Source: Phellopilus nigrolimitatus (taxonomy: Eukaryota; Basidiomycota; Agaricomycetes; Hymenochaetales; Hymenochaetaceae). From it: a stretch of 64,000 bases of DNA. Position numbers and translations under genes: made by a program. The stretch spans positions 59,372-123,371 of the forward strand of contig JAJOHG010000076.1 in the NCBI GenBank assembly GCA_021029095.1, in the 5' to 3' direction. The notes below the pieces were generated by a model, which saw only the letters and a list, made by a program, of their open reading frames with translations, did not search any database and had not been told where the DNA came from. Positions within the stretch are counted from its first letter, which is position 1. Every line of letters begins with the position of its first letter. Below, in pieces: positions 8,779-43,875 of the stretch.

Positions 8779-8783
8779 GGTTA

Positions 8784-12371: not shown

Positions 12372-12503
12372 CTCCCCCCTGATCTGACACGCCTGTCAAT
12401 CACAGAAGACCCAGCATACCACACATCTCAATCACCTTCACGCGTCCAAGCGCCTTGGTCATGATGTCAGCCGGCATAGACTGGTGGGGAGGTAGCAAAT
12501 TAC

Positions 12504-13095: not shown

Positions 13096-13533
13096 ACTTG
13101 GGTAGTGGCGACTGCTCCGCATGGCAGGTTACAATCACATGGTGGCTGATGCAGATAAACATAACTGTCTGGTAATAGTGAGATAATCAGTTAGTGTGAA
13201 AAAGGTCCAGGACTTATTCTGTATCAGTAGTATGAAGAAAACTACTGAAATATTGAGTTAAAATAAGAATCAATATGTAATTTAAACCTACAACCTAGAA
13301 CAACAACTTACATTTACCAACTTATGCTGCCCTCCCATCATCAAATCCTCATCATATCTGCCCATTTTCTTTGCCTACCCATTTTCTTCATACTACTAAT
13401 ACAGAATAAGTCCTGAACCTTTTTCACACTACTATTTTTTTTTTTCATTATTAGTAAACTTTTATTTATATCTGCATCAGCCACTATGGGATCGTAACCT
13501 GCCATGCGGAGCAGTGGCCACTACCCGCAAGTG
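13096..13533. mobile_element. A-type MITE, ~440 bp with long inverted ends
   Basis: The left end reads ACTTGGGTAGTGGCGACTGC and the right end is its inverse (...CAGTGGCCACTACCCGCAAG). Inverted similarity extends about 145-150 bp into each side, around an A/T-rich core. Shorter or partial relatives lie at 18943-19060 and 43239-43395 and within the hAT right end. No target duplication could be defined. Confidence 0.65.
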
Positions 13534-14004
13534 TCAATAAGACCCGACTCAACCACATCGCGCAGCCAGTAGTGCCGCAAGTCCAAGTGCTTCATACGGC
13601 CATGATGTTCAGGGTTCCTGGCAACAGCAAGGGCAGACTGGTTGTCCACATAGAGTGTGGAAGGCGCATTGAACTCATAGCCAAATTCTGAGAACAAATT
13701 GCGCAACCACATAATCTCCTGACCACCCTGAACAGCAGAGATGTATTCCGCTTCAGTGGTGGAGAGAGTCACAATAGTCTGAAGACGACTAGCCCAGCTG
13801 ATAGCACCAGTTCCCATCTTAACCACCAGGCCGCTTGTAGAACACCTGTCATCCTCATCCCCTCCATGGTCCGCGTCAGTGAATGTGGTGAACAGTTCAG
13901 ACGAGTTCTTGTCAGGTGCAAAAGTCAACTTCATGTCTTTGGTACCCTGAAGATAACGACACAAGTGCTTAGCAGCCTTCCAGTGAGCAGGACCAGGATT
14001 ACGA

Positions 14005-14466
14005 TTACTGAGTTTACGAAGAATCGTTTTTTGTAACTGAGCGTTTTCACCAGCAGTGGCTGTGCCAATGTGGCAGTGTTCATTACAAAAAGTGTACAAA
14101 ATTGAGCTCGTTCTGAAGTAAGATTGTACACTCGTTCACAGCCACCACTCGGCTTCTTCCGGTGATGGTCCTCAGCAATGTTTGCTTTTATATTTTGTCT
14201 ATAACCTTCTTTCTACAATGCATCCATCCAATGTCTTTGCTGGTATGGGTAGGGATATAGTGTTTCTGCCTGAATGTCAAAAAAAAAATGAGTTAAGGGG
14301 TGCTGTATCAATAAAGATAAGGCAATTCTACTACATCGCTTGTTATTTATGTATTGCTTCCTATTTTCTTAACTATCTATTTCTTTAGGGAGCACACTCT
14401 GGCAGGACAGTTGAACTTCTGCTAATGCATGGAGTTTGTTAGAAGGGTTTTGAGATGCATTACGAG
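14005..14466 (+). repeat. C-type repeat, copy 1
   Basis: Starts CGATTACTGAGTTTACGAAG. An inverted copy, visibly diverged, lies at 25640-26108. Both copies directly abut pieces of the same broken REG1-like gene or the Copia fragment. No coding function was seen. Confidence 0.6.
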
Positions 14467-14695
14467 GTTGCAAAGAACGAGCACTCTTTGTCCTTAGAAA
14501 GACTAACTCTTTCGCATCCGGGTTCAGACCTTTGTCTCTGTGCTCAGAACCCGTCGAAAAGCTCAACTTATGACTTACAACTGTGCCTTCCTTCCCAACT
14601 AATCAAGCTTTTCGGTGTCGCCACGGGACAGGCATGCACGGCAGTATTGCGCGGCTCGACGAGGCCGAGCGCTCGCTACACAACGCCAGTCAACG
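14467..14695. other. Junction sequence between the C repeat and the REG1-like fragment
   Basis: Short unassigned sequence. No recognisable gene or repeat. Confidence 0.3.
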
Positions 14696-16446
14696 CTATC
14701 CGTGCTGCCATTCGACTAAGCGCATGCCCTCGTCTTCGCTCCGCCTATGCCGCACGTCGTTCGGACGTAGTTCAAACCCCTGCTCCTCGCGCACGTCCTC
14801 CATCTGCACGTCCTCGTTCTGCTCCGCCTCCGCCTCGTTCTCCGCACGGTCAAAGTACTCGAACTCCACCTCCTCCGCGCCTTCCTCCGGGCTCGGGTAC
14901 TCACAACTGGGCCGGGCACAAAGTGCGCCAGGCCTCCGAATGACAAAGGTGGCGACGCTGTGACATTGCCATTGCCCACCCTCCGCTGAGCATGATTAGG
15001 CGCATACATACTGGGAGACTGCAGAGTCTGACCTGTGCGTGGAGAACTCCCCGCGGGGCTGGTCTCTGCATGCGAAAGCGGACCGCATCGCGTTCGCCCC
15101 ACGGGTACACGCACCACGCTTGAAATTCTCGAATGCATCTCCACGTCCCACAATAACGTCCTCGCCATAGCCGTACCCACCATGCCGTACCAATAATTGC
15201 CGCCAAAGCCGTTGGCGTACGCACTTCCGTAGGCGTAATTGCCATTGTTGTGTCCATTCCCGTAGGCGTTGTATGGCGAGCCGCTCATGTACAGCCTCAT
15301 CCTTGTCCACGCCGCCTCCCTTGAGGATTGTTGGTGCAATCGGCGCAATTGTGACATGCTCGCAGTCATTCCTGGACCCGTGCGCCGAACGCGAGTGGCT
15401 GCCTTGGCTCGTGCTCCCACTGTTGCTTCCTGAGCCTGAGCCGGAGCCGCTCATGTGCGGAGAACTGTGTCTGCCCGACGAATGTCGGAACTGTGGTCGT
15501 TCCGGATACGAGCCAGTAGATGAATGTCGATGCTGGTGACTTGGCTGAGAAGGGAGGTGAGGTGGAGTCTGGCGGTCGCTCTCGAACGAGGGTCGGGCGT
15601 TCTGCAGGCTGCTCGAGGAACCCCTACGAGAAGCTGACTTGATCTCGAGCACATCCTCCTCTTCATCCTCCTTGTCGATGTGTTGCTCGTCTGAGTCCGA
15701 GTTACCGTCCTGCATGCCAACGTCTTCATACAGCCCATCCTCGTCGTCCTCGACATACCTGCCCGCCATGTCCACATCCGAGTCGGGATCAGACCCAAAG
15801 ACGTGGAAAACGTAAAAATCATTAGCATGTCTCCCCTGCCTCGAAAATAGAAAATAAGCAAAAATGCAGGCTCACCCGTCATCATATCCAACCCACGGCC
15901 TCCGCTTGTGGATGCGTTCATGGACCCCGAACCACCGTCGATCACGATACATTGTTCGACGATTGCGTTGAAGCTTATATGCTTCTTCGCCGGGAGCTGG
16001 GTGGCGGATGGCGACAGATTGGCGCTGTCCGCTTCGCTCTTTCCACTGCTCTGCGCGTCGCTCGTGCCACTGTCTGCACTCTCCAATGGCGGTGGCAGTA
16101 GACGGCCAGCGAACACACCCAAGCCAGTGCTAGCTTCGCTAGATGTTGGCCAGTACGGAATCGGACCCTGTACCGGCATCGTTTGGTTAGGCGCGCCGAC
16201 GGCGCTACATGCCATCTCGACGAGATTGTTTGATGCACCCGTGCGCTGGCTTGCGTTCAGATTGCTTTCAGGTTGGCGATCCGCCACCTGGTGCGCGACG
16301 CGCGGTGGAGAGACCTTTGCCTTCTTACCCCGGCTGAAACACGGAAGAATGTCCGAGTGTGGAACATTGGCGGGCAGCCGCCGCTTCCGCCGAAGAAAGC
16401 ACGGCGCTCGTGCATCGACTTGTGGGAGAGGGCCATTGCTTTGCAT
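14696..16446 (-). pseudogene. REG1/Hex2-like PP1 regulatory subunit, C-terminal half (broken)
   Basis: The minus-strand frame from 16446 gives an Arg/Ser-rich protein with KKHISFNAIVEQCIVID, a PP1-binding (K/R)x(V/I)xF context resembling the VEQC motif of Reg1/Hex2-type regulators. A GT-AG intron of about 80 nt lies near 15800-15875. An acidic Ser-rich region (DEEEDVLEIKSASRRGSSSS) follows. The end reads EEVEFEYFDRAENEAEAEQN and DEGMRLVEWQHG before a stop at 14696. Between about 14950 and 15290 the frame is uncertain and probably shifted. Reg1-type proteins direct PP1 in glucose repression. The N-terminal half is missing here; a matching piece lies at 26109-26775. The apparent start codon sits in sequence resembling an A-type MITE end. 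Confidence 0.5.
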
Positions 16447-17044
16447 GGCAGTATACGATTCCTGTTTTCCTGAATTTTAATGTTTAATATTTATACAAAT
16501 CACAGCAGACATTAGCTTATAATTCCTTTCTGGTGAAGAAGTTGGTTTATTTTGTAATGCCTTATCAATGTCTTTGTGACAAGGAGAGCAAGAGGATGTA
16601 GTCTCAAATTTCATGTTCAAGTGAAAACCACTACTCCAAGGAATTCCTTATTTAACTAGTTCTTGATGTGTTTGAGGTGTTGGTGCTCTGAAATTTTTAT
16701 GAGGCCATTGGACAGTGCAACACTGACATGTGCATGGTTGAACACACCAATGTATTTATGCCATTGCCTACCATCAGCGTAACATATCCAACCAACTTGA
16801 TTGAGCATTGTCAGAATGAACTTCTTATGTGCATGTGACACATGTACCTACATCCATTGTGTTGATCAAGCATCAATCAAGATGGTAGGGCATAGCACAG
16901 GTCAATCCATAATAGACCCGGACCCATTTGCACGGGTATGAGACTTTCAAAATTCATATCCAGACTCAAGTGATGAGAAGGGTGACCTGCGGGTCACATT
17001 TTGTTTTAATTTAATTACAGTTAATTTTGTTTAATAATATTGAG
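16447..17044. other. Gene-free stretch with a D-family fragment
   Basis: A/T-rich sequence. 16885-17010 carries a D-repeat-like piece (GGTAGGGCATAGCACAGG..., GACCCGGACCC). No credible gene. Confidence 0.35.
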
Positions 17045-17936
17045 TAGAAATGAGTAGAAAGTCGATTACTGTGTATACCTGCAAGAGCAAGTCGACGGCG
17101 GCGCCAAGGGACACTGTGGCCCACTGCGGCTCTTGAAATCGCCTACATTGACTATGCGCTCGGACTGCATGAACAGACTCTGCGCGGACGTAGGGCTTGA
17201 TGCACTTATTCGTCAGGTTGGCCGCGAGCGGCTGCGTGTTAGTAGTGCAGAGTGGTTTTTGAGAGCATGGCGTAGTACTCGAGCTCAGACTGTCGGAGCG
17301 GTTGGCAGTTGCCAGAGATGATGACAAGTCTAGCTAATGCATTAAGACGAGTCAATGAGGGGACCTTCTCAGCCTCACCCTTCAGTCCCCGGAGACGAGT
17401 CAAGCGAAGGCTCCCGAATAATAGGCAAAAAGAAAAAAGGACGCCTCTCACGCGCTCATGACGTCCAGAAAGCGTGCCCACTCGCACTGCCCAAAGCCCA
17501 CTGACGCGCCCCATATTGCAACATCCTCGTCTCCGCCTCCCGCAGTCGCCGACGGCGGGGGCGTCGGCAGGCCGCGAACCCAGCGCCGCCGCTCGGCCCG
17601 CCGAAGTAGTCCATCACCGCACCCGGTGAGACGAGCTCACTGAGTTGCGGCGTGCGCAAGTACAGCGGCGCAGCGTGCGGCATCAGCTCCGCGTAGCGCG
17701 GGGAACGCGAGCTCGCGCTGCTGCACAGCGAGGCGTGCTGCGAGCGCGTGCCCGTGCTCGAGTCGTGGTATGGGAACTCGAAGCTCTTCACGAGCGCGCG
17801 ACGACCTGCATGCGGCGCGCCTCGCCGCCCTCCTCGGCGTACCCGGGCAGGACCAGGACCAGAACCAGAACCATAATCGGGGTCGTATAGCGGGCTGAGC
17901 GCGGCGAGTATGTCGCCCGCCTTGTCTCTTTCTCAT
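17045..17936 (-). pseudogene. Unidentified Ser/Gly-rich gene fragment, left mirror copy
   Basis: The minus strand carries PYHDSSTGTRSQHASLCSS, QLSELVSPGAVMDYFGGPSG and downstream text. All recur on the plus strand at 30290-31250 with frame shifts between the two. I do not recognise the protein; an affinity to fungal transcription-factor C-termini is only a guess. Frames break several times, so it is a relic. It is the outermost unit of the left arm of the mirror-image cluster. Confidence 0.55.
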
Positions 17937-18942
17937 GCCACTCCGGCGCGCCCGTGCTCTTTTTCACCGTAGTACGCCCACAGAGAATGTCGCTGATAAC
18001 AATTTCGCAAGATACCTCTATATCAACACTCCATCAGTGGTAGCATCGTTGTCTGCCCCAGTCATAGGAATTGAAACGAATTCGGAGAGTGACTTGGCGG
18101 TGCCGAGGTTCCGAGCTTGACTGACTTCTAGTTGAACCTGCCGCCACATGCGATACAAGCCACCGTCGATCGGAGCGTGGTTTCGCCCGTAGATCTCAGC
18201 CACGGCATAGGAACGAAGAAGAGCGACCAAGTATTGATCGCGCCTGAACTAGGGAACTTCAAGTATACGACCTCTTCTGTATTGGTGTCAAGCCAGCGCT
18301 GGTCACTTATAAGACAATGAGCCAATCAATGTATGCGGTATGCGATGTGAGACAATTACGCCTTGACATGAATCCCTAGACAATCATTTCGAAAGAACAA
18401 GGATCGGTCCGCAGGACGGATATCAGTACATCGAAGCAAGTGTACGTAGATCGAATATTGCAATATTATTTCCTATGACAACAGCTTATCAGCAGAGCGC
18501 TCCGGACGAGGCGACAAATACTCATGTCGACATAAATATTAAGGGTACATCGGTCATGTTCTTCGGTCAATTTACAACGCGCAGGCCTCCAGCTCCCATT
18601 CGCAGTAGATGAATTTACATGACTTCGAAACCAGCTCGGTTTCTCTGCACTGGTGTCAGCAAACGACGGATCATTGAACACAAGTTGAGCCGGACCTCTC
18701 AATTTCCTCTCGTCACCGCTCAAGACCGTACCAATCGAGTCTCTCTTCTCCGTGGCTTTGCGAGGGAGCTGAGGTTAGAAGCACATAAAATAAAAAGAGA
18801 TTAGGTTATACCCTGATCCTGCGAAGACATCTTGTGAGCTGACCTTGCGCACAGATCCAGCAGCGAGCTTGGCCGGACACCATAGCTCCGCCGAAGCCAG
18901 GAACTCGCGCGAGCCTGCACTCTGCCACGACGCGTCTTCGTA
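17937..18942. other. Unassigned region in the left arm
   Basis: Only short frames (up to ~85 codons) on both strands. None shows a recognisable motif, and no repeat boundary was found. Confidence 0.3.
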
Positions 18943-19060
18943 CTTGGGTAGTGGCCACTGCTTCGCATGGCAGGTTACGAGCCCAGGTTAGCTGATGTAA
19001 ACAACATGGGTAGTGACCACTGCTTCGCATGGCAAATTACAATCCTGGTTGGTAGCCCAT
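18943..19060. repeat. Two tandem A-type MITE termini
   Basis: ACTTGGGTAGTGGCCACTGC begins at about 18943 and a second, variant copy (GGGTAGTGACCACTGCTTCG) at about 19010, in the same orientation. No inverted partner lies nearby, so these are terminal fragments rather than a complete element. Confidence 0.55.
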
Positions 19061-19124
19061 GTAAAAGAGTGTTGTGATTTTCAAACAAAAGGATGAGACA
19101 TCTACATAACCTATACTTCAAATT

Positions 19125-20172
19125 TTGGTTTATAGTAATTTGCTGATAGAGAAGTGAGTTCTGGTCCGATTGCAATGATATTACAATAAAAATGATTGTA
19201 CAGTCCAGGGCTACACATTTCAGCTGAATACCAAACGGATGGGAAAGATAGATACACCATCTGGAAGGCCTGAAGTAGACCTTTCAGACAGTACCATCCG
19301 CACAGAAGTGTACCGGCTTGGATTCCTCCGAATTTGGTGCATACAGCCTGCAAAGTCTGCAGGCTGGATAGGTTCAGGACAAATCGTCTCAGGGGTTATT
19401 TTTCAGCCCCCAAACCCATCTACTATGTTACATAATCGTGTAGGTATTGCGAGGCGCTGCATAATGCAAAAGAAATCATGTTTTTACGTGCAGTAGAAGA
19501 ATTACTATGCTGAAAATACAGGTGGGTGTAGAAAGTCTACGGCCCCCCTAAATAAGGAAGGTTATTCCCGTCCGCGCCGCCCGAGTGTCCACATCGTCGC
19601 ATTCACCTAAGAAAAGACCAAACAGGATGTCTGACTATAAAAGCCTTCTTTTTATACATATATGATGAAAATACAACATTTATATAGTCGATTCGAGGTT
19701 ACACCGTTCGCTTTCCACTGCTGTCACGTGGTTTAGGGCTGTAGCCCTGACCACAACTTCAAGCTCGTTGCGGGTCCGATAAAGGCCCCGCCACAAATAC
19801 TACATAAGATACAATATTTTTTTAGGTGATTCGAGCTGGCAGTGTGCCATAGGCAATTGTGAATGACAAGAGAGGACGCGGATGAGTGTATGCGACGCGG
19901 ACGGGAACCACCTTCCTCATTCAGGGGGGCCGTAGACTTTCTACACCCACCTGTACAAATGAGAATGGTGCTGAGCATGGGGGATTTTCCTAATTTGGTA
20001 ACAAGTTTGAGTTTTGTAGTGGTTGTGGCACGGGCGCCGATACCAAAGTACACTCGGGTAACGCAAATTTTGTACACTTTTTGTATTGCCACCAGCTGGG
20101 ACCAAATATATGCAAGCACAAAGATAATGACCAGTTAGTAGGACGATCCTTCCTAAAGTCAGGGCTCGTAAC
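19125..20172 (-). repeat. B-family repeat, copy 3 (interrupted)
   Basis: The minus-strand copy of the B repeat, from TTTATAGTAATTTGCTG to CTTCCTAAAGTCAGGGCTCG. It is interrupted by a 435-bp TA-flanked element (19519-19953). The uninterrupted sequence at 41473-41990 shows the empty site. Confidence 0.75.
19519..19953. mobile_element. Tc1/mariner-type MITE inserted in the B repeat
   Basis: The ends are CAGGTGGGTGTAGAAAGTCT and its inverse, with the inverted similarity running roughly 60 bp. TA is duplicated at 19517-19518 and 19954-19955. The copy at 41 kb reads GAAAATACAAATGAG where this one has GAAAATA-element-TACAAATGAG, which proves the insertion and the 2-bp duplication. There is no transposase. 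Confidence 0.93.
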
Positions 20173-20284
20173 CAAGAGTCAGTGATCACCAGTTCATTGC
20201 CACAGGTAGGCAAGAATACGCAAGGAGCGCACAAATGGCGGGTCGAGGGTAAGGTAGGTCACAGTGCGCGTGCCTAGATATCCT

Positions 20285-21310
20285 TTAGCGACTAGCGCTC
20301 GCGGCTGCGCCAGTGCGCCTCGATAATTGCTAATCTTATGCTGCTATGTGTCTTGCGCCCCAGATGATGATGGTAGACTTCAAGGATAGGGCCCCCTACA
20401 CGCACTACCTTACGCGAATCGTCGACGAACTCACACGGAGTGAGACCAGTGTCGCGCGCATTCGAGGAGATAGAGGCGGCTTTGTCGAGAGCGCCAATGC
20501 CCTGAATCGCGCGGGGCTGGAGACCATAGACAAGACTGCACGTCTTCGCGTCGAAGGGACGGAACCACGGGGCATGCTGATCTCTTGCCATCCGAGAAAT
20601 GCACATTCTGGTCTCCAGGTTGCGTGCGCTCTCCGGACGCGTGAATAGCGCCGATCGAGGCCTCGTCAGAGGGCGCACCGCCAATGACCTTGCCGGGAGG
20701 AGACGGGCCAGGCGCAGACAGCGGGATCGAACGTGCGGAGCTCACACCTGACTTGCGGGCTGACTTGATGCCAAGTGCAATGGGGACAATCTCGGCGATG
20801 TGAGTGTCTGGGCCGTACACCTTAATGGACACACCGAGAGACTCGCCGAGGAGGCGCATCGCCTTAAGACCTTCCTGTTAGTTCGGACAGCCGCGACGGT
20901 CGAAGATCTTGACACTGTGCGCAATGAGGCCGGCCTTGTACTCTTTCTTGCCATCGGGCTTGGGCGAGCCGCGAGTGATAAGTTCGTCTTCGCATACTCG
21001 TACGTCTGGCCGCATCCACGTCCTCCACCCTCCTGCCATCGCTCCCTGGGCCCGCAAAGGACGACGGCGCTGACGCCCCGGCCGAAGAGCCGTGCATGGA
21101 CAGCGACTGCCTGCACACCGCCGCATGCCCGTGCTTTTTCGCGAGCTGGAGGACGACCTCGGGCGCGCCAGAGGCGGAACGCAGCACGGAGAGGAGCGCG
21201 CCGGGCGCGAGCAGCAGTGCGAAGGCGTTGCCCGCGTTGGACTGGATGCGGTAGTCGGTGAAGAGCGCGTCGGCTTTGCATGTGAAATAAAAGAAATCCA
21301 GATCGGCAAC
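20285..21310 (-). pseudogene. ATP-citrate lyase fragment, left mirror copy (disabled)
   Basis: Minus-strand frames give KAMRLLGESLGVSIKVYGPD with TEIVPIALG-like text (IAEIVPIALG), then [27 protein letters not shown] and WFRPFDAKTCSLVYGLQPRA. These are characteristic of fungal ATP-citrate lyase, which makes cytosolic acetyl-CoA from citrate. The copy is out of frame in several places, has an in-frame TAA where the family has a Tyr-Gln context (near 20878), and has lost part of the YEYAKT...LITRG region. The 21000-21310 end does not look like the enzyme and may be another fragment. A plus-strand partner lies at 29341-30110. Confidence 0.7.
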
Positions 21311-21329
21311 TCGGCCGCGTGATCAACGA

Positions 21330-21800
21330 GAACAGCGCGGGGATCTCGACCACGCCAAGGAGGCTTTCGCCTCCGTCCTCCAGATGGACAAGGGTGAGTG
21401 GCTTTCTTTATTTCGTGTTAAAGATATTGACCTTGATAGAGCTCCTAGATTTCGACAAGGCGAACGAGATATTATTGTTTCGTCTTGGAATAATCTACAA
21501 ACAACAGGGAAAATACACGGAGTCGCTCGAATGCTTCGATCGCATTCTCAGAAACCCTCCGTCTCCTCTTGCACCCGCCGATATTTGGTTCCAGATCGGC
21601 CACGTCTACGAGCAGCAGAAGGATCATACGCGCGCCAACGATGCATATGAACATGTTGTCCAGGAGAACCCGTTGCACGCCAAGGTCTTGCAGCAGCTCG
21701 GTTGGCTGTACCGACGGACAGTCTATCACAACGTCGGCTCCTCTCCCTCAGGACGTACACCCGACGGCATACGCAAACATAGCGGGCCCGCCTGTGACAG
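21330..21800 (+). pseudogene. SSN6/CYC8-like TPR co-repressor fragment
   Basis: LDHAKEAFASVLQMDK, then a GT-AG intron (about 21395-21448), then DFDKANEILLFRLGIIYKQQ, ESLECFDRILRNPPSPLA, ADIWFQIGHVYEQQKDHTRA and HAKVLQQLGWLY. These match the TPR repeats of the general co-repressor Ssn6/Cyc8. Only about three repeats remain. The frame then runs into unrelated sequence, so this is a captured or truncated piece, not a working gene. Confidence 0.7.
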
Positions 21801-22868
21801 CTACTGGTGAACCGCCGTTATTCATGTCTTCCGGTCAGATCCCGCGCCTGATCTTCACGCGCACCGAGAGCATATCAACGAGAGTGGATTGTCACTTCCC
21901 TCTCCGCGTGCCTAGCACGCTATGACCTTTCGGCGGCATCCCCATTACCATCAGATACTTGGGAACGGGAACGGTGCGGGGACAGAGAGTGTGAGCGCGT
22001 GCGCCCGAGGAGAGATTCCGGTAGAATGGGGCTCCCGTCCGCACACCCGGCGTCAAGAAGGAGCATAATAGGAACACCATCGTCGGCAATCTCTGTCGTG
22101 TCTGGACCCAGGCCAGGCAGCCCAGGACATGCCTTATCGCGGCAGCATTCCGTGAGTGAGCGCTCGCCTGTTGTCGGTCCCGCTGGTGCGACAGGACCGG
22201 GCCAGCACTGGACGGCGAGTGGCCCATATGGAGAGCATCTTGCGGCCTTGAGCCCGCCTTTTAACGATGATTCGCTGCCGGCAGATTCGCCACCGTCGAT
22301 GGATTCGCCTCCACAGGCGCCTGCGGCTCACCCGCGTGCACAAGCGCAAGCTCAGGCGGCGCCACCTAGCTGTCGTTATGATCCACGGTTTGTTGAGAGC
22401 CCGCACGGAGCAAGGGCGGAGCGAATAGATTGGGACAGGTTACGCATGGACCGCGAGCGCGAGTACTCGCGCAGGCTGAAGCTTGAGAGAGAGAGCAGCC
22501 TGGGGCCAGACGCGTGGACCGGCTGAGATGAGCAGAAGCGGAGAAGCGCGCTGCCTCCACCATCGCCGTCCGCGAATTCGACGGGGTCGAACTCAGACTA
22601 TCCGACTCAGTACCTATTGCCCGGTGCTCCTGAGGTGGCGGACAGGCGTCGTGGGCGGAAGCCGAAGGATGCGGACAGCATGAGCATGCGAAGGCCGCCG
22701 ACTCCCGTACCAAAGTCGGTCGTCAACGCCCCAGGCCGGCGAGAAGCGCAAGCGTCGTGCTGGCGGCGGGCAGAAGTCGAGAGAGCCGCAATCTTCGGCG
22801 AGCGCGACGGGCTCGAGCAGACGATCAGACGCAGGCGGTCGACTCCACCTCCGTATTCTTAGACAATT
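21801..22868 (+). other. Unidentified low-complexity coding-like fragment
   Basis: A plus-strand frame (about 21999-22526) encodes a Pro/Ser/Ala/Gln-rich stretch ending in an Arg/Glu-rich segment (RIDWDRLRMDREREYSRRLK). It could belong to the C-terminal region of the adjacent SSN6-like gene or to another gene. I cannot decide. It has no start or end consistent with an intact gene. Confidence 0.3.
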
Positions 22869-23330
22869 ATGCCCCGCCCCGCGATCCGCGCGCTCCTCAT
22901 CGATTTCTCCGGCACACTGCACATCGCATCTGGCCCGACGACCGCCGCAGCTGCCGCTCTCGCGCGCGTGCGGCAGGCGGGGCTCGCCGTGCGCTTCTGC
23001 AGCAACAATAGCCAGGAGATCGCGCGCGCGTGCTGCGTGAGCAGCTTAGCAGCTTGGGCTTCGGCTGTGCGCGACGACGAGCACCGGACGAGCCTCGGCG
23101 CGCTCAGGGAGGTCGTCCGGAAGATGAAACTGCAGAGGTGCGTTTCGTGCATGGATAGTAGATAATTACAGGTATTGAAGTACTTTTTTTAGGTCCTAGG
23201 CCCTCCTATCCGACTCCGCGATGAGGAGTTCCGCAGCGCCGTGGCGGACGCCGAGCAGCACCACGCGTCGTACGACTGTCCTCGTCGCGTTCCCCCCGGA
23301 GCACCTCGCGTCGACCACACCTCGAGCTCG
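22869..23330 (+). pseudogene. HAD-superfamily phosphatase fragment, left mirror copy
   Basis: IRALLIDFSGTLHIASGPTT has the first HAD motif in the form LIDFSGTL (normally DxDGTL/DLSGTL), followed by AVRFCSNNSQE (motif II region). This resembles the N-terminus of LHPP/HDHD2-type phosphatases. Then the frame is lost; ALREVVRKMKLQR and text resembling FRSAVADAEQHHASYD lie in different frames. The minus-strand partner is at 26960-27520. Without the C-terminal catalytic motifs it cannot be active. Confidence 0.65.
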
Positions 23331-23369
23331 TCCATTCCAGCTGCGCACCCACCGACTTACGCGAATGTC

Positions 23370-23725
23370 CACGTCGAGACCCTCGTCTTGCCTCGGCCGC
23401 GTCCACCAGTACTGCGCGGATCGCGTTCTTGAAGGAGGTAGCAGTGCACTTCACGCTGGACGACTGGCAGGCGGCATCAGAGGTCGCTCGCAAGCTTGTT
23501 GTCTCTCTTCCGACCCTACCCCCGCCTTTCCCGACTCCGAACACGTTCGGAGACCATGCTGCATCCAGCACCCTCAGCAATACGTGAGACCGGTTTAGCT
23601 TCGTAATTCGGCTCGAGGACCTCGAGCGCAAGCTGCACGAGAAGACTATGTGGTTAGTGGTTCGGTACATGGCGACGGGCATCGGCGATTGGTGGGACAA
23701 CAATGAAGGAAAGAACTGACGCGTA
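23370..23725 (+). pseudogene. CBM21 (glycogen-targeting PP1 subunit) fragment fused behind the HAD piece
   Basis: Out-of-frame segments encode FLKEVAVHFTLDDWQAASEV, LVVSLPTLPPPFPTPNTFGD and RLEDLERKLHEKTMWLVVRY followed by WWDNN. This is the signature order of the CBM21 domain of Gac1/PIG-type glycogen-targeting PP1 subunits (VAVRFTLDxWQT... LWxxxRYxxxxxEWWDNN). At least one frame shift separates the parts. It follows the HAD piece directly, an odd neighbour for either gene. Confidence 0.6.
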
Positions 23726-24342
23726 TGCTTCAAGTCAGCGGGAGGCGGGGCGGGGGGTAAGGAGCACTCGACCCCAATGAGCGGCTCCGCGCGTTTGAGC
23801 CCCGTGATCCAGCAGCGCACGTTCAGCGCGCCATCGACGCTGAAGGGCACGCCCAGGCGACCGCGCACGGCACGCAGGTGCCGTTGGCAAGGTTCGCCCT
23901 CCCTTCTTCCCGCATGCACCGCCCAAGCTTGCCTGCGCGGCCCTCTCCGCCCGTACGACACCATATGCCTCCTCAGCCAGCGCTGCAATGCGTCTGCGGC
24001 GTGGACGACGACGAAGCGCCCGTGTCCGTGTTCGCAGGGCTCTCCGTTGACTGCGAAGCCGCGTCCGACTGGCCAAGAGACTGCGCTTCAGTCGGCGATG
24101 ACGACGGCGGCGAACGCGAAGGGGCGGAGTACTTCAGAAGGTTGAGCTTCGTGGGTAAGGATGTGTACAGCGTCGTGGCTGCCGAGCGGCTACCCATCAT
24201 GAGCGTGCGCTCCGCCGTCGCCTCCTTTCCCTCCGGCGTGCGCGTGTCGCACTTGAGGTAGTCGATGCATCGCGCACAGGCCGCACGTGAGCGTGGAGTC
24301 CGCGTGCACCTGACAAGTCGGAAGCCGACGGCAGGTGTGGAA
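23726..24342 (+). other. Unidentified GC-rich fragment
   Basis: An open plus-strand frame (about 23878-24261) encodes an acidic, unrecognised sequence (SVGDDDGGEREGAEYF...) ending near the palindrome. The last ~150 bp are repeated in inverted orientation at about 26920-27070. Confidence 0.35.
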
Positions 24343-24390
24343 ATGGATGACGTAGTGCGTACAGCGCGCTGTACGCACTACGTCATCCAT
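24343..24390. repeat. Perfect 48-bp palindrome at the inner end of the left arm
   Basis: Each strand reads ATGGATGACGTAGTGCGTAC... through the centre ACAGCG/CGCTGT, with no mismatch over 24 bp per side and no loop. The same sequence, with a 12-nt loop, occurs at 26853-26912. Confidence 0.92.
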
Positions 24391-24530
24391 GTCGAGACCT
24401 GCATCACGTGAAGTTGACTGAGGTTTCCAGTCCACTGCACAGCACAAAAAAAGGCTTCTTCCGGTAAGTTTAGTTTGTTCATTAAATAAAAAAACACTTA
24501 TGCATAAACGGACAGCCGACGTGGGTCTGG

Positions 24531-25610
24531 ATGACCGTCGCGGAGGCTGTCGAGGACGAGCTTGAGGTGGCCGGCGTGTTTGTCGTCAAGACCTGCCATA
24601 CGTTTTCCGCACTTGAGGTCCAGCTTCCGCCCCCCAAGGCACTCCGCACCTGTGCTTCTTCTTCATTCATCAATAGCCCGATGCTCTTCCACTCGGACTC
24701 CTTCTACCTCACGTTCTCTGCCTTCGATGATGTCTTCCACCTCCACCTCCGCCCGAATGACCATCTTATTCACCTGCTGAGTGCATTAATCACTTCAAGA
24801 ATGGGCCCGGCAAACGCCAAGTCCTCGATCGATCGGTGCCTCTCCTCCATGAGAACATCCACATGTACTGGGGTGAAGTTGTCGCTGCAGAGCACTCGCC
24901 GGAGCACATGCGGGAAGATGCCGCGGGAGTACTTCCACGTCCATCTCAGCAGCCAGGCAAGAAGCTCGGCTGGGCACGCATCATGGTGCATTCGCAGGGC
25001 GATGCCGCACGCGGGCTCGAGCCTGTGTTTGAGGTTGCGTTCGAGGTGTGTGACGCACCACGTACAAACGCGCAAAAACTACCTGCGCATTAAGCTGGTG
25101 CCGGATTCCTCATTCGTAGACAGCGGTAATGATCCAGATGCGCGACTTGACATTTGGCGCGACTCGGATGTACTACCGCACGTGGAAGAGATGCCTGGAG
25201 GGACGCAAAGATGCTCTCACAATGCTCATGAATTTAATATGGATCCCTGGCGGAATCCCGCTTTGCGCAGACCTCCTGCGCTCCGGCATGGTACAATGTG
25301 CTGGGTATGCTGAGCGAGACAGCTACGTGGGTGAACAGCACTCTCGCAAAACACGACGATGTTGCAGGCGGTGGTTTGTCAAATTCCTTCCCTTCGAAGG
25401 AAGGCTTGATTGGCTAAACAACGGGCTGTCCGAAATCGCAGAGGGTGTTGTACATGGGCATGGCGGTGGACTGTGCATACAACACCACGTATTCGTCTAC
25501 GCAGAATGCGACAACACAAATCCTCAATAACCGGAACAATGCGAGCTCGCTGTACAAATGTCAGTCTCAGAATCACTCGAAAGTTTGGTGATATATGGTC
25601 GAAAAAGCTG
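24531..25610 (+). pseudogene. ADAM-like metalloprotease N-terminal fragment (frame-broken)
   Basis: Segments in several frames read in family order: MLFHSDSFYLTFSAFDDVFH and LHLRPNDHLIH; MYWGEVVAAEHSPEHMREDA; GWARIMVHSQGDAARGLEPV; QTRKNYLRIK; DIWRDSDVLPH; ALRRPPAL; QNATTQILNN. This resembles the pro-region of basidiomycete ADAM-type zinc proteases as I remember it. The zinc-binding catalytic domain is absent and at least three frame changes are needed. It lies in the unpaired centre of the mirror cluster. Confidence 0.6.
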
Positions 25611-25639
25611 GACAATTGTTCGCTATGAATTCAGTACTT

Positions 25640-26108
25640 ATAATGCATACAAAAACCCTTCCACCAAACTCTGTGCATTAGCAGAGGTTCAACTGTTCTG
25701 CCAGTGTGTGCTCCTTAGAGAAATGGATAGTTAAGAAGATAAGAAGTAATATTGTAAATAACAAGCAGTGTAGTAAAGTTGCTTCATATTTATTGATACA
25801 GCATCCCTTAATCCATTTTTTTTTTGAGATTCAGGCAGACACACTATACCCCTACACATACCAGCAAAGACTTTGGATGGATGGGTTGCAGAAAGAAAGT
25901 TATGTGTGAAAAACAAAAACGAACATCACTGAGGAACCATCACCGGAAGAAGCCGAGTGGTGGCTGTGAACGAGTGTACAATCTTACTTCGGAACGAGCT
26001 CAATTTTGTACACTTTTTGTAATAAACACTGCCACATTTGCACAGCCACTGCTGGTGAAAACGCTCAGTTACAAAAAACGATTCTTCGTAAACTCAGTAA
26101 TCGTAACT
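25640..26108 (-). repeat. C-type repeat, copy 2
   Basis: The inverted, visibly diverged counterpart of 14005-14466, ending ...AAACTCAGTAATCGTAAC. It sits exactly at the 3' break of the REG1-like N-terminal fragment. Confidence 0.6.
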
Positions 26109-26775
26109 GGACATCGTCATTGTCCATCCCCACGTCAGCGTCCTCAATGCCCTCCTCGTCCCAATGCGAAGACACCGGGAGCGCGGTTGTAAGCATCTCG
26201 GTAATGCTGCGATGCTTGAGAATGGGCTTCATCGCACTTTGGGACGGCTGAGATTCATGCGAGCCGTAGCGCGAGGCGGTTGGGCGATACCTATCAAGGG
26301 TGACACTGCTCGATGGGGACGATATGCAAGTCACGCCTTTGCCCTTTGGGGACAAAGCAGCAGCATCGTCTTTGGATTGCTTATGTGTAGATCCATTGGG
26401 AGGAGTGGAGGGAGCGGGGGCCTTGGACGGCAGAGTCCAGTCGACTGCGGTGTGCAGGGGACCGTACAGCCATGTTAAACCCGAGTCCTTTAGCCTGTTA
26501 TGAAAGGCGCAGTCAGCGATGAAGCGGGCTTCCCATTGAGAGCATCGACTTCGCGAAGCGCGATGCTAAAAGAGACAACTGGGGAAAATGAAATTGACGC
26601 GCACCAGCTGAGGGTCAACGGTCTTGAGCTTGTTGCGCTGTTTCCACCAGGGAGGCGTTCTCGAGGCAGACGCTGTTTGCGATCTCGTTCTTCTGCTTAG
26701 TCATGTTGTGCCAGGAGTGCCAGACGTCCTCCTCTGCCCAGTCATGGCTGAGGTAGTCGACCTGGCCGTTTATGC
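26109..26775 (-). pseudogene. REG1/Hex2-like PP1 regulator, N-terminal part (broken)
   Basis: The minus strand reads VDYLSHDWAEEDVWHSWHNM, TKQKNEIANSVCLENAS, a frame loss, WKQRNKLKTVDPQL, an intron-like gap, LKDSGLTWLYGPLHTAVDWT, and finally MKPILKHRSITEMLT with an acidic tail. The W-W-ENAS-W block resembles the AreA-N/GATA_AreA-type motif shared by Reg1-like proteins, and KPILKHRSI(S/T)EML is typical of that family. At least one deletion shifts the frame near 26650. It stops exactly where C repeat copy 2 begins. The C-terminal half, in the same orientation, lies 9.7 kb away at 14696-16446. Confidence 0.6.
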
Positions 26776-26852
26776 GTAAGTGTTCGGAGGTTTTTTTTTA
26801 ATGTACACGAACTTACTGATAGGAGCCTTTTTTGTGCTGTGCAGCGGGCTCG

Positions 26853-26912
26853 ATATGGATGACATAGTGCGTACAGGGTTAGTTAGCGCTGTACGCACTA
26901 CGTCATCCATAT
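26853..26912. repeat. 24-bp-arm hairpin at the inner end of the right arm
   Basis: Arms 26853-26876 and 26889-26912 pair with one mismatch around a 12-nt loop. The sequence matches the perfect palindrome at 24343-24390 and stands in the mirror position. Confidence 0.88.
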
Positions 26913-26959
26913 CCATACCTGCCATCGGCTTCCGAGTTGTCGGGTGCACGCGGGTTTCA

Positions 26960-27520
26960 ACTTACCCCGCGCTCACGTGCGGCCTGCGCGCGAGCATCGT
27001 AGGCGGCCTTGGGGCATCGACTACCTCAAGTACGACACACGCGCGCGGGCCATATGTGAGGTGCTCCGGGGCGAACGCGACGAGGACGGAGTCGTATGAC
27101 CCATGGTGCTGCTCACTGCGGAACTCCGGGAATTTCTCCATCACGGAGTCAAATAGGAGGGCATACGGCCTAAAAGAAGTACTTTAATACGTGTAGAATT
27201 ATCTACTATCCATACACGAAACGTACCTCTGCAGCTTCATCTCCCGGACGACCTCCCTGAGCGTGCTGAGGCTCGTCCAGAGCTCGCCGTCACGCACGTC
27301 GAAGCCCATGCTGATAAGCTGCTCACGCAGCACGCGCGCTCTCTCTCCTGGCTGGTGTTGTTGCAGAAGCGCACGGTGAGCCCCGCCTGCCAACGCGCAA
27401 GAGCGGCAGCTGCGGCGGGCGTCGGGGTGGACCCGATGTGCAGCGTGCCGGAGAGGTCTATGAGGAGCGCGCGGATCGCCGCACCCTGCGTCTCCATTTG
27501 CACGCGTAGCTCGCGCATCT
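26960..27520 (-). pseudogene. HAD-superfamily phosphatase fragment, right mirror copy
   Basis: Minus-strand IRALLIDLSGTLHIGSTPTP and LTVRFCNNTSQE in one frame, LREQLISMGFDVRDGELWTS and LREVVREMKLQR in another. The gene is closer to the family consensus than the left copy, but it too is frame-shifted. Both copies end with the same unspliced-looking text after KLQR. Confidence 0.65.
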
Positions 27521-27529
27521 CGCTCGAGA

Positions 27530-27960
27530 CACTCCGTATGCGAGATCACGCCATCCCTCTCTGTACAAGCCGCCTCAAGTTGCTCCTCCGCGTCGCGGCG
27601 CACGCCCTCTGCCGTGCGCTTCTGATCCTCGAGAGCCTTGGTCTGTGCCTTAAGCTCGGTTTTGGAAGTATCGTCGGCACGCTTCCTCGAACGCTGCTTC
27701 TCCAGCTTGTCATTCAGTGCTGCTCTCGAGACGCAGATGTTGAGTGAAAATCTGATAGTTGTGTGCGGAAATCAGAGAGAGCGGTTTGAGATGCAGTAGT
27801 CTGCAGCAATACCTCGGCTATGAGCGGCGATGAGGCAAATAAAGACGTAGGAGAGCGTGATGGAGAGGTTGATGGCGATGTTACTGTAGAAGCCGGTACA
27901 GGCAACGATAATGGTTTGATAGATCGAGCCTCCGCTGTGACAGGTAGCGTGGGCTGGATA
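27530..27960 (-). pseudogene. Coiled-coil protein fragment of unknown identity
   Basis: The minus strand carries ASQTALSDFRTQLSDF and LNDKLEKQRSRKRADDTSKT followed by ELKAQTKALEDQKRTAEGVR, a heptad-rich coiled coil. It runs into the HAD fragment without a stop or a plausible splice site, indicating a fusion of unrelated pieces. Confidence 0.45.
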
Positions 27961-28039
27961 AGTGGTGATGATGAGGTAATACGCGAGGCGCAGGCGCGCG
28001 CCGACTCAGTAACCGAGCGCGAGGACGTCCTCGTGTGCG

Positions 28040-28880
28040 GCGGAGCTGCCGCGCGAGCGCGTACTGCGCGGGGACGACGGGGACGAGCGTGACGGCGAGG
28101 TGCGGGCCGCCGAGGGGCGGGGAGCCGGAAGATTGAGAACGCACCCCCGCATTTGCAAGCCTTGTTTGATATGTTCCATGATCGGCTCCAAAAACTGCTT
28201 CATGTTGCTCCCCACTGAGGTTGCGACTTGACCGATGGCGGTAAATGCGACCGACCTCTCTGCTGGCTTCGAGAGTTGCTCCAATAGATGGATCATGGCC
28301 TTATGCATGAAATATTCCGAAAACGTTTGCGTGTCGTAAAAGGCGAGAGTCGGGACGAGCGTAATGATCGTCTTGCGCACAAGCGCATCTCTATGCGTCC
28401 GGAGGCGTAGAATAGTCTCCGACGTGTCTAGATACGCTTCCTTCATGAACATCCCAGCATGAAGGAGCAATTCGCGGTACGTCAGCAGCGAGCCCTGGAT
28501 TGTTTCTGCAGATGCCGTACTCAGTCCCTCCTGCACATCCTGCAGGATCTTCGTCAAGAAAGGTGTTTTCGATTGGCGCTCGCGCTGCGTGATGATATCA
28601 AGACAAGCCGCCAGAAGGTCTGCTGCCACAATCAAACGAGGATCACGTAGTGGGATAAGCAATTTGTCGAACACAAGGGAGATATGAGGGTGGAAGTTCT
28701 TTGAGAATAAGCACACCTGCATAACGCCCGGGCTCCGAGAGATCCGACTGCATGAGCTCAATAGCCGCGGGGACTTCAAACTCCACCATCGAAAACCGAT
28801 CTGCCGACCTGCACAATCTTCCCAAGTGTCTCCGCAGCTGCCTGCATCACACTGTAGTCCGAGTAAGGCAGCGCGAACTT
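28040..28880 (-). pseudogene. TOR kinase HEAT-repeat fragment
   Basis: Exon-like segments on the minus strand read LPYSDYSVMQAAAETLGKIV, VEFEVPAAIELMQSDLSEPG and YAGVLILKEL, ISLVFDKLLIPLRDPRLIV, TIITLVPTLAFYDTQTFSEY and SVGSNMKQFLEPIMEHIKQG. These follow the order of the N-terminal HEAT array of the TOR kinase. Nothing of the FAT or kinase domains is present, and the frame ends in unrelated GC-rich sequence at both sides. Confidence 0.7.
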
Positions 28881-29340
28881 GACTGCGAGCGGGTGTGCTG
28901 CGCGGGCGGGGAGGCGACGACGATGGGGCTCGGATGGGACGAGGAAGGCGGGAAGGGGAGGCGCTGGAGGTGGGGCGGCCGGTCGGTAGGAAGGTGGTGA
29001 CGGAGAAGGCGGCGACGGAGGAGGCGCCCGTGGTTCGACGTCAAGACTAGTGTGGGTCGCGCTGATGCTCCCCGTTTGCAGCAGGAGGCACTGCGGTGTA
29101 CCCCCTGGTCCACGTGAGCGGCAGTGCTCGCGCGGCGGAAACACTTCGTGCACAGGTGCACGGTCGATGTCCATCGGCGCGAGCGTTGTGTGGTTGGCTC
29201 CCTGACGGGTGTCATCAAGTATAGGCATACGAGCACGCGGTGCAGTGCAAGGCCGTATGCGCCGCACGCCGGGGCCTGCGGCCATCTTGAGCAAAGCATC
29301 AGACGACGATCACGCGGAGAGCCGAGCCGCCAGTTCAAAT
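28881..29340. other. Unassigned sequence between TOR and ATP-citrate lyase fragments
   Basis: GC-rich, with short frames on both strands. No motif recognised. Confidence 0.3.
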
Positions 29341-30110
29341 TTCTTTTATTTCACGCTTTCCTCGTCCCAACACCTCTATCTGTTGTAGTCTACTCTGATG
29401 CCATTGCTGCACACGGCTTTTCACACGAGCTCGCTAACTACGGCGAGTGCTCTGGTGCTCCGACCGAGGGTCAAACGTACGAGTACGCGAAGACAATTAT
29501 TGACCTTATCACTCGTGGCTTGCCCAAGCCCTGTGGCAAGATCTCATCGTGGTATTGCCAACTTCACAAATGTTGCCTTAACTTTCAAGGGTATCATTCG
29601 CGCTTTGAAAGAGTACAAGGCCGGCCTCATTGCGCACAGTATCCAGATTTTCGTCCGCCGCGGCGGTCCGAACTACCAGGAAGGTCTCAAGGCAATGCGC
29701 CTCCTCGTCGAGTCTCGGTGTGCCCATCAAGGTGTACGGCCCGGACAGCTACATCACCGAGATTATCCCCATTGCACTCAGGCGTGAGTCCCGCACGTTC
29801 AATCCCGCCGTCTGCGCTTGGCTCGCCTCCTCCCGGCAAGGTCATCGGCGGTGCGCCTTCTGACGAGGCCTGGATCGGCGCGATTCATGCGCCCGAAGAG
29901 CGCACGCAACCTGGAGACCAGAAGAGATCGGCACGCCCCATGGTTCTGTCCCTTCGTCGCGAAGACACGCAGTCTTGTCTATGTTCTCCAGCCCCGCGCG
30001 ATTCAGGGCATTGGCGCTCTCAACGAAGCTGCCTCCATTTTCTCCAATGTGCATGACCCGTGTGAGTTCGTCAATGAGTCGCGTATGGCGAACAAGCTTA
30101 GTACGTGTAG
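29341..30110 (+). pseudogene. ATP-citrate lyase fragment, right mirror copy
   Basis: Plus-strand [40 protein letters not shown], then in other frames [59 protein letters not shown] and [12 protein letters not shown]. The piece covers more of the enzyme than the left copy and keeps the region deleted there, but has several frame shifts. It is clearly non-functional. Confidence 0.7.
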
Positions 30111-30289
30111 GGCCGCCCCTACCCTTGCACTAGCAACAATGGCATCATCATCAACAGCAACAGCCGCACACGCACACGCACGCCGACCCCAATGCTCGAC
30201 ACGTCCCCTTGACAAAATCGAGATGGGCCCTCCAAGAAATCCAAGTCTTCCAAGTCCACCGAGTCCATCTCCTCTCGTTTTGTACTCGT
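30111..30289. other. Short spacer between mirror units
   Basis: Contains CA-rich low-complexity sequence (around 30150-30185). No gene. Confidence 0.3.
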
Positions 30290-31250
30290 CGTGAATTCGG
30301 GCAAATACTTACTCGGCTATATGTCTGTGCGCGCGCGCGCGGCGTGACCACCACGGACAAGGCGGGCGACATGCTCACCGCGCTCAGCCCGCTATACGAC
30401 CCTGATTATGGTTCTGGTTCTGGGTCCTGCCCGGTGCGCGCCGCGTGCAGGTCGTTGCGCGCTCGTGAAAAGCCTCGCGTTCCCGTACCACGACTCGAGT
30501 ACGGGCACACGCTCGCAGCACGCCTCGCCGTGTAGCAGCGCGGGCAGCATGAGCTCGCGGTCCCCGTGCGGAGCTGATGCCGTAGCTCACTCCCGCGCCG
30601 CCGTACTCAGGCGCGCCGCAACTCAGCGAGCTCGTCTAGCCGGGTGCGGTGATGGACTACTTCGGCGGGCCGAGTGGCGGCACAGGGTTCGCGGGCGGCG
30701 TGACGCCGGGCCTGCCGACACCCGCCGTCGGCGGCTGCGGGAGGTGGAGACGAGGACATCACAATGTGGGGCGCGTCGGTGGGTTTTGGGCAGAGCGAGT
30801 GGGCACGCTTTCTGGACATCATGCAGTGCACGGAGGCGTCGGGGCTCATGAGCGCGTGAGGTGTCCTTTTTTTTGCCTATTATTCGGGAGTCTTCACTTG
30901 ACTCGTCTCCGGGGACTGAAGTATGAGGCTGAGAAGGTCCCCTCGCTGACTCGTCTTGGTGCATTAGCTGGACTTGTCCTCATCTCTGGCAACTGCCGCT
31001 CCAACAGTCTGAGCTCGAGTACTACGCCATGCTCTCAAAAACGACTGTGCACTACTAACACGCAGCCGCTCGCTGCCAACCCGACGAATAGTGCACCAGG
31101 CCCTGCGTCCGCCCGGAGTCTGTTCATGCAGTCCGAGCACATAGTCAATGTAGGTGATTTCAAGAGCTGCAGCGGGCCGCAGCCTCCCTCGGTGCGCCGT
31201 CGATTTGCTCTTGCGGGTATACACAGTAATCAACTTTCTACCCAATATTA
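30290..31250 (+). pseudogene. Unidentified Ser/Gly-rich gene fragment, right mirror copy
   Basis: The plus strand carries DMLTALSPLYDPDYGSGSGS, FPYHDSSTGTRSQHASPCSS, VMDYFGGPSGGTGFAGGVTP and SEWARFLDIMQCTEASGLMS followed by a stop. It ends with text matching the 17045-17330 end of the left copy (LSSSTTPCSQK, NTQPLAAN). Frame shifts are fewer than in the left copy. The family was not recognised. Confidence 0.55.
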
Positions 31251-31252
31251 TT

Positions 31253-31570
31253 AAACAAAATAAAATGTAAGGTAGACGAACTTCAGTTAAGTAACGCTTT
31301 TGCCGGATGAAGCGTTACATTTGCCCTCTTCTCTCCACACATGAGACATTGTTAAATTTAAAAATGGCCAGTCAATAGAGAATCAAAATATGTAACCTCT
31401 GATGGTTTGGCTTTTGCGAAATTTTCAGTTGCTGTGAAGTAGATAAAGAATCAGTGTCCAAGTTTTGTAAGATTGCTTGTAATGATCAAGAAAGGAAGGC
31501 AGCGCAGGCAGCGCATTGATGCCATAGGCGACCTGTGTCTTTTTCAAAGTTCGCCTTGTTGTCATCTTCC
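31253..31570. other. A/T-rich spacer before the Copia copies
   Basis: No gene or repeat recognised in these ~320 bp. Confidence 0.3.
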
Positions 31571-31848
31571 TATTGGATATAGTATGATCTTGGACACTTT
31601 TATTCCTTTTATTATTTTGCGTACCAGGTGAGTTGAACTCCGGACTTGTTGTTCTGCGTCACCTGACATGTTGATGTATTACATAATGCTTCCCTTGAAG
31701 CGGCAGAGTCCATGGATGGTGCTCTCTATCTTTTGCACTCATCCATTGGACTCAGGCATGTTTAGTTTCTCTAATACATTATCTTTTGCACTCATCCATT
31801 GGACTCAGGTCACTGTCTGTGTTTGTTGTGAGACCACTTCGCCTCACA
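31571..31848 (+). repeat. Copia 5' LTR of the truncated copy
   Basis: 278 bp, TATTGGATATAG...CTCACA. It is followed by the AGGTTATGAGCC primer-binding-site sequence. It differs at several positions from the LTR at 40456-40733. Confidence 0.88.
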
Positions 31849-32677
31849 GGTTATGAGCCTTGCGCTGTAACTTCACAACAACGTTCAGTATATCGTCGAC
31901 AACATCCTCCTTGATTTTCGTTCAAATCGGAGTTGATCTGGTCCCTCTGGAAGAGTTTTTGGCAACTGCAAAGTTCCGGCTGTTCGGATTGGGCTGTAAT
32001 CGCAGGGTTGGGTTCTGTGGTGTGTCCGTCGTCTTTGTGTCGATTTTCGTGCCGCCATTCGCACTTGCTGGCACTCTACACCCCTCTGCATCAACATCCA
32101 TCCTTATCATCCTCTCATCTGCACTCTCTGCTTTTCGTCTCATCGCGCAAAATCGGCTTGACGGATCGTGCTGAAACTTCGCACGTCGTCTCGTACCTCT
32201 CGTCCCACTCTTCGTACCGACTTGTGGCCGATTCGACTTCGAATTGAGGGTGCTGCATCGATTTCGACTTTTGCAGTCTCTATCTGTCTGCTTGTCTGCT
32301 CCCTGCATCGTTTCCATTTGATTTGGTTGTTGTTGGATCAGATAGTCTATTGGTTGTGAAGCTCGACTGCAGGGCCTTAGTTTGCCCTTTGTGACGCTCT
32401 TTTGAGTGTTTACTTAAGCCTAGAGCCTCTCTCATCCAGCGGTGCCTGCGGAGTCTTAACAGACTGACAGACCAGCACTGTCTTGCAACGATTCTGTGTA
32501 TACTGCAATCATTTTGGGTGTTTGGAATCTGTTTGGCTTGTATTGACCTGATATCTGCAAATCGCGTAATTCGGCTTGTACACATTTTCGGCCATCACGC
32601 CCCAACCGCTTGTCCGTTTGATCCCCAACTTCGCACTCTCACACGCACCACCATCGTCTACCATCGCTCTCATCGTC

Positions 32678-41460: not shown

Positions 41461-41472
41461 TTTGAAAATTGA

Positions 41473-41990: not shown

Positions 41991-41995
41991 ATCAT

Positions 41996-43608: not shown

Positions 43609-43610
43609 AC

Positions 43611-43873: not shown

Positions 43874-43875
43874 TA

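Follow-up and report, generated by a model that had tools for sequence, protein, structure and literature searches.

Nested, gene-capturing Helitrons are known from maize (PMC3288121). In fungi, the FoHeli paper on Fusarium oxysporum describes a nested element and gives opposite insertion as a model; it counts 27 putative captures and, in the available part of its text, reports no evidence for an important role of capture (PMC5148889). The accessible parts of two further papers (PMC4905642, PMC10799480) name no mosaic of host-gene fragments in a fungal Helitron, and Phellopilus is not mentioned among the matches listed in the open-access literature. Here we describe a 64-kb stretch of the genome of the hymenochaetalean basidiomycete Phellopilus nigrolimitatus (the window; C610:59372-123371, in an assembly of 56.4 Mb and 635 contigs, which are labelled C1, C13 and so on) where Ser/Gly-rich (SG), ATP-citrate lyase and HAD phosphatase fragments lie twice in mirror order. 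An earlier note had ascribed this pattern, placed at 17045..31250, to an old large inverted duplication or to a gene-capturing mobile element with very long inverted arms and later insertions. We find that the pattern very probably arises from two members of one non-autonomous Helitron family, nested in opposite orientation.

Mirror pattern, termini and empty sites

The mirror was examined by self-BLASTN of the window together with a repeat finder. Besides the SG modules (Table 1), inverted matches join the ATP-citrate lyase stretches 20381-20947 and 30127-29607 (77.9%), the HAD stretches 22881-23307 and 27479-27058 (83.8%), and two parts of a palindromic region, 24233-24399 with 27049-26846 (73.5%) and 24435-24515 with 26844-26762 (77.0%). 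The E-values of the inverted matches in the window range from 0 to 6e-10, so these matches are not due to chance. The mirrored order and orientation of the three fragments, in arms that are 73-84% identical, and the palindrome common to both arms were borne out, and a dotplot lacking inverted similarity, which the earlier note had named as its refuter, was not the outcome. A sixth inverted match, 13999-14462 with 26106-25641 (88.6%), lies off the dyad axis of the other five and was therefore the first sign against one palindrome. This match is the 5′ end of each Helitron, and it reveals the nesting. The bounds drawn earlier were too narrow: the units run from 13999 to at least 31270 and, nested inside, from 16419 to 26106.

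Both edges of the younger unit recur across the genome. Searches with four stretches of the window returned at least 66, 95, 49 and 48 matches; at the recurrent edge 16414-16418, at least 56 bp are common to many places, and the places that reach the edge at 26106-26110 are as numerous as the exact copies of the terminal 19-mer (23). On other contigs the same two edges lie 7.4-14.3 kb apart, with different contents between them. Read in Helitron orientation, the ends are TTACGATTACTG...hairpin...CCCACAAG, with insertion before T. The 5′ ends begin TTACGATTACTGAG, and all 22 examined (of 26 known) stop at the same base; the 3′ ends read hairpin, CAAG and then T in each of the 14 examined (of 20 known). 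The base before the 5′ end is G in 12 cases, A in 7 and T in 3, the older element of the window and that of C605 being one event among these 22. Together, the 22 5′ flanks and 14 3′ flanks give an R|T-like target, and the TTTT|T/C target of Helitron2 was not encountered in them. Across the genome, 26 matches to the 5′ 19-mer (23 exact) and 20 to a 3′ 34-mer (11 exact) were found, with none for either reversed control. The 3′ hairpin, whose stem GCCATGC/GCAATGGC contains one bulge, lies ∼13 nt before the end, and its motif has 176 copies in the genome (reversed control, 0). An asymmetric inverted repeat is suggested by an 11-nt match between the 3′ subterminal region on C598, a Rep-helicase locus described below, and the 5′ end of the non-autonomous elements, which was equaled in 2 of 5000 shuffles; by inspection, the young element matches 10 of these 11 bases at 16454-16464.

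The flanks of ten end-to-end elements were joined and searched for in genome stretches, allowing at most 3 mismatches in 36; C290, an eleventh pair by coordinates, was left out. An exact empty site without target duplication was recovered for seven of the ten, six of the seven in Copia sequence. These seven sites represent six distinct targets, with C434 and C619a at one site, and mispaired control joins matched in 2 of 90 cases, both between C434 and C619a. We note that the two Helitrons at this Copia target (C434:149347-158568 and C619:39856-54119) point to either a shared duplication or a hot spot. For the young element of the window, C605 and C194 are continuous across the insertion (GTGCATCGA|CTGGACAT), C246 gives the same 16418/26107 join by coordinates, and on C544, where 16411 meets 26181, there is a small deletion. 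Because an ACT lies at either side of the young element, a Crypton-like or target-duplicating insertion with an ACT repeat was considered; a comparison of the 14 3′ ends and 22 5′ ends led to its rejection, since CT is part of the element and A alone is common to element and flank.

At C605 the older insertion shares its outer 5′ flank with that in the window, and the young element is absent; the C605 pieces are 96-99% identical to those of the older element in the window, compared with 73-84% between the two arms, so that the arms would be related elements already diverged before nesting. Pieces of either half also lie in separate dispersed elements on C434, C625, C71, C112, C135 and C179. 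Positions corresponding to 17926 and 20381 are only 226 bp apart on C434 and C625, and the repeats at 18942-20177 are shared with 8781-9250, 12499-13096 and 41473-41997 in the window. The part of the earlier note that spoke of a gene-capturing mobile element with later insertions was correct. At the other side, similarity of the older element to its relatives ends at about 31270-31279, and Copia sequence starts at 31571.

The Helitron_like_N domain is found at 11 places in the genome and in none of 14 control prokaryote genomes. An open 2,460-aa frame on C598 carries DUF6570, Helitron_like_N and PIF1 domains and ends ∼100 nt before the same 3′ terminus as that of the non-autonomous family; at E 0.001, this frame contains no extra endonuclease domain, a Helentron feature. 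On C14, C36, C44, C64, C390 and C598, the distance from the Rep domain to the hairpin, downstream and on the same strand, is 4.94-4.98 kb; these are six of the eight loci judged among the 11 (C335, C608 and C368 were left out). A genome DNA search with 3,152 bases around the start of the C598 frame and upstream returned only the self-match. Taken as a whole, the family is one of non-autonomous Helitrons with somewhat unusual ends and, for a fungus, rich host-gene capture.

Host-gene fragments and the internal palindrome

The window from 13999 to 31300 was aligned to nine loci (two overlapping) regarded as candidate parents, which were named by Pfam and PDB sequence searches. Eight host genes were matched: ATP-citrate lyase, SSN6, TOR, an HDHD2-like HAD gene, an AreA-domain gene, a CBM21 gene, an M12B protease and a coiled-coil gene (Table 1). 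We call these loci parents because their frames extend past the fragment, and copying would have run from gene to element. The HDHD2 label stems from the PDB sequence search of the C602 parent, and a neighboring frame of the TOR parent locus on C603 matches yeast TOR2 and mTOR structures. A Citrate_bind domain is found in the window frame 29118-30056 (+). For the lyase, the C42 gene was the only copy aligned and is a candidate donor; at least 10 lyase matches lie outside the listed Helitrons, in at least four pairs of contigs. The coiled-coil parent is a 1,158-aa frame with no Pfam match, its coiled-coil character having been judged by eye, and a further 68-bp piece of it lies at 14470-14536. 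The Pfam search likewise gave no match for the SG module and identified no parent gene; in the genome DNA search, the module is also present, among the matches listed, on C434, C625, C13, C390 and C368.

Both lyase fragments join parent position 114 to position 1501, so the module has one origin, older than the split of the two elements, and the joint between the HAD and coiled-coil fragments recurs in dispersed copies. The parents of the SSN6 and M12B fragments lie ∼6 kb apart on C1 (2594638-2604168), arranged and oriented just as in the young element, and the two fragments may thus have been picked up together as one longer stretch. In the older element, the AreA-domain fragment is split into two parts by the young element, with an ambiguous ACT at 16418-16420 on the edge of part 1. 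The earlier note had described the spacers between the paired units as different in the two arms; they are not entirely so, as the right spacer also contains an SSN6 piece. Its statement that all pieces are frame-broken was too strong: the left HAD exon is open (C610:82267-82530, no stop), yet the gene is a fragment.

Each element further contains a long internal palindrome. That of the young element folds as DNA at -27.5 kcal/mol, and 0 of 200 shuffles were as good. The palindrome recurs in the family, in 11 other listed stretches (two overlapping) in addition to the two in the window. Some copies read GTGCGTAC/GTACGCAC and others GTGTGTAC/GTACACAC, both arms being changed, and conversion between the palindrome arms could explain such matched changes.

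Table 1. Coordinates of the young and older elements in the window and of the parts assigned to them
Feature	Coordinates	Strand	Basis
Young non-autonomous Helitron, 9,688 bp	16419..26106	-	5′ end 26106, 3′ end 16419; ends common to dispersed copies, exact empty site
Older related Helitron, interrupted by the young one	13999..31270 (at least)	+	5′ terminal pattern at 13999, inverted module order, same insertion at C605
5′ terminal module, young, ∼470 bp	25641..26106	-	At least 23 places, including the two in the window, reach the sharp end 26106-26110
5′ terminal module, older	13999..14462	+	88.6% to 26106-25641, inverted; exact terminal 19-mer
3′ terminus, young: CAAG end, hairpin stem ∼16432-16449, inner half of putative asymmetric inverted repeat 16454-16464	16419..16464	-	
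SG module, left, Ser/Gly-rich frames	17015..17926	-	80.6% to 31270-30356
SG module, right	30356..31270	+	Self-BLASTN
Later repeats in left arm, with a further Helitron-type 3′ end (18954)	17927..20380	.	Repeats and comparison with C434/C625
ATP-citrate lyase fragment, young	20408..21011	-	86.5-93% to C42 gene; internal junction, parent 114|1501
ATP-citrate lyase fragment, older	29385..30107	+	Alignment to C42; same internal junction
SSN6/CYC8 fragment, internally deleted, young	21345..22784	+	84-94% to C1:2594638-2597094
SSN6 fragment, older	29077..29223	-	93% to C1 SSN6
HAD (HDHD2-like) fragment, young	22848..23311	+	84% to C602 gene; twin at C625
HAD fragment, older	27045..27479	-	82.6% to C602 gene
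CBM21-domain gene fragment, young; 23989-24198 inverted relative to the rest	23311..24198	.	86-88% to C1:922990-923923
M12B (reprolysin-type) protease fragment, young	24621..25559	+	86.7% to C1:2603232-2604168
AreA GATA-like-domain gene, part 1, older	14684..16420	-	90% to C194; PF08550 in parent
AreA-domain gene, part 2, older	26106..26768	-	91.6% to C194, contiguous there with part 1
Coiled-coil gene fragment, older	27475..27980	-	93% and 91% to C112:524922
TOR kinase gene fragment, older	28128..28883	-	90.8% to C603:815929-816724
Near-perfect palindrome, young	24340..24402	.	Same palindrome in other copies
Internal palindrome, older	26850..26913	.	Comparison with family copies

The window has further features. 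Two short stretches, 13096-13526 and 43235-43380, are bounded on both sides by Helitron-type 3′ ends in opposite orientation. Two Copia arms of 3,177 nt (31571-34747 and 37557-40733) are inverted and 99.8% identical, and an open 1,345-aa Copia frame (35122-39159) adjoins them; this pair stems either from a nested insertion that is very recent or from the assembly. A 394-nt inverted repeat (2963-3356 and 3688-4081, 331 nt apart) is 99.7-100% identical, and tandem tRNA-like sequences lie at 11606-11678 and 11865-11935 in a repeat-rich zone, where ARAGORN finds one (tRNA-Ile, TAT) and Rfam finds two.

Formation of the mirror and rival explanations

Since the two elements very probably descend from a common ancestor with SG-lyase and HAD-palindrome modules, insertion of one into the other in opposite orientation yields the mirror. 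The older element (5′ end 13999, + strand) would first have captured the AreA-domain, HAD, coiled-coil, TOR, SSN6 and lyase fragments. The younger element (16419-26106, - strand), which carries lyase, SSN6, HAD, CBM21 and M12B fragments, integrated at an A|C site within the AreA-domain fragment of its older relative, with no target duplication. A Rep-helicase like that on C598 probably supplied mobilization in trans, and transposition may have proceeded by single-strand peel-and-paste through a circle, by analogy with known Helitrons (PMC4778049, PMC3288121). Capture would have taken several rounds, by end bypass (3′ read-through), by template switching or by both. The small inversion at 23989-24198 and the mixed orientation of the fragments suggest an additional contribution from template switching or repair.

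An old inverted duplication of one large stretch, later broken by insertions and divergence, would give several modules in mirror order and orientation just as observed, but we consider it very improbable. The 5′ terminal match between 13999 and 26106 lies off the dyad axis, pieces of either half are held in separate elements on the six contigs named above, and the homologous loci without the young element (C194, C246 and C605) are continuous at 16418|26107 without the center. We judge this explanation refuted by the empty sites. To the same small degree we credit a random mosaic, left by segmental duplication or by the repair of double-strand breaks, in whose vicinity Helitron ends simply happen to lie. 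The many joints, the small inversion and the mixed fragment orientation are what such a mosaic would produce; however, the fragments move between fixed ends in dispersed copies, and some joints, among them HAD-coiled coil and lyase 114|1501, are found repeatedly.

Still less credible is a single gene-capturing element of the terminal inverted repeat (TIR) type, resembling a Pack-MULE with very long inverted arms. It would account for the long arms and for the gene fragments, but the ends of the family copies are unlike each other (5′ TTACG, 3′ CAAG) and the seven recovered empty sites are free of target duplication. None of the ten tested copies has matching inverted ends together with a target duplication, no wider search having been made. 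The one element with long inverted arms proposed earlier gives way here to two related, opposite elements with their own 5′ ends at 13999 and 26106. An assembly artefact is the least probable explanation: the window stops at a contig end and the 99.8% inverted Copia pair adjoins, but arms only 73-84% identical cannot be an assembly duplicate, and several joints, although not all (not, for instance, the TOR-SSN6-lyase joints in the older element), are found independently on other contigs. Parent genes that lie elsewhere as ordinary neighbors, with the mirror copy due to assembly, which the earlier note had offered as a second refuter, were not seen: the eight parents are on six contigs, although three of them are on C1, two of these being the SSN6 and M12B parents.

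Some observations weigh against two nested Helitrons of one family. The canonical Helitron1 ends, 5′-TC and 3′-CTRR, are replaced by TT... and ...CAAG. No 3′ end of the older element was found: 31280-31570 has no match to the 3′ part of the young element or to five relatives, and a search of 40700-44000 gave only a 32-bp match of the terminal-hairpin type. The terminal hairpin has an unremarkable predicted stability (z -1.27, with 24 of 200 shuffles as good), though its sequence is conserved. The exact 7-nt core of the inverted repeat in the young element is not significant (499 of 5000 shuffles), and the 8-nt match on C390 is weak (114 of 5000). Among the Rep loci, C168 lacks a fitting hairpin, and the one on C68, at a distance of 8.3 kb, does not fit; on C598, no 5′ terminal motif (at most 2 mismatches) was found in the ∼6.2 kb upstream of the open reading frame. 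Lastly, empty sites for three of the ten elements (C179, C190 and C112) were not found in the genome stretches searched. The flanks of C190 resemble two different Copia places, and this pair may be recombinant.

Comparison with described Helitrons

With the opposite nesting of two Helitrons, a puzzling mirror is very probably resolved into a nest of two transposons with exact ends. The locus provides a clear case of host-gene fragments inside basidiomycete Helitrons, where the Pleurotus survey, in the part available, reported none (PMC4289320). The shared joints would allow the order of capture to be reconstructed, and the 176 copies of the hairpin motif offer a handle for genome-wide annotation of such elements, which a search for TC/CTRR ends would probably miss.

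Like Helraiser and Helibat of bats, the Phellopilus elements have a 3′ hairpin, which acts there as a terminator, read-through being a route of capture; Helraiser is an animal element tested experimentally, whereas the elements described here are known from sequence alone (PMC4778049). They share with HELPO1 and HELPO2 of Pleurotus ostreatus a basidiomycete host, a subterminal hairpin and perhaps an AT target, and the HELPO2 end is CTTG; unlike the HELPO elements, for which the accessible text reports no capture of host-gene fragments, they hold eight host genes in one nest (PMC4289320). FoHeli has an asymmetric terminal inverted repeat whose inner half lies tens of bp inside the 3′ end, an arrangement that may also exist here, but FoHeli starts with TCAG or TGCCT and ends with ATTTT or CTCCTGT, in contrast to the A/G|T-like target and the host-gene mosaics found here (PMC5148889). 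The maize Helitrons are similar in being non-autonomous, in holding several host-gene fragments per element, in their stepwise build-up and in their nesting; their 3′ end is CTAG, whereas CAAG with a putative asymmetric inverted repeat is found here, in a basidiomycete (PMC3288121). We are evenly divided on a broader proposal, namely that the Phellopilus lineage captures and reshuffles host fragments as pervasively as the maize elements do, against the published view that such capture is rare among fungal Helitrons, with hybrid ends that combine a Helitron1-like hairpin, an AT-like target, a Helitron2-like asymmetric inverted repeat and CAAG, and with a recurrent palindrome that may aid fold-back or capture.

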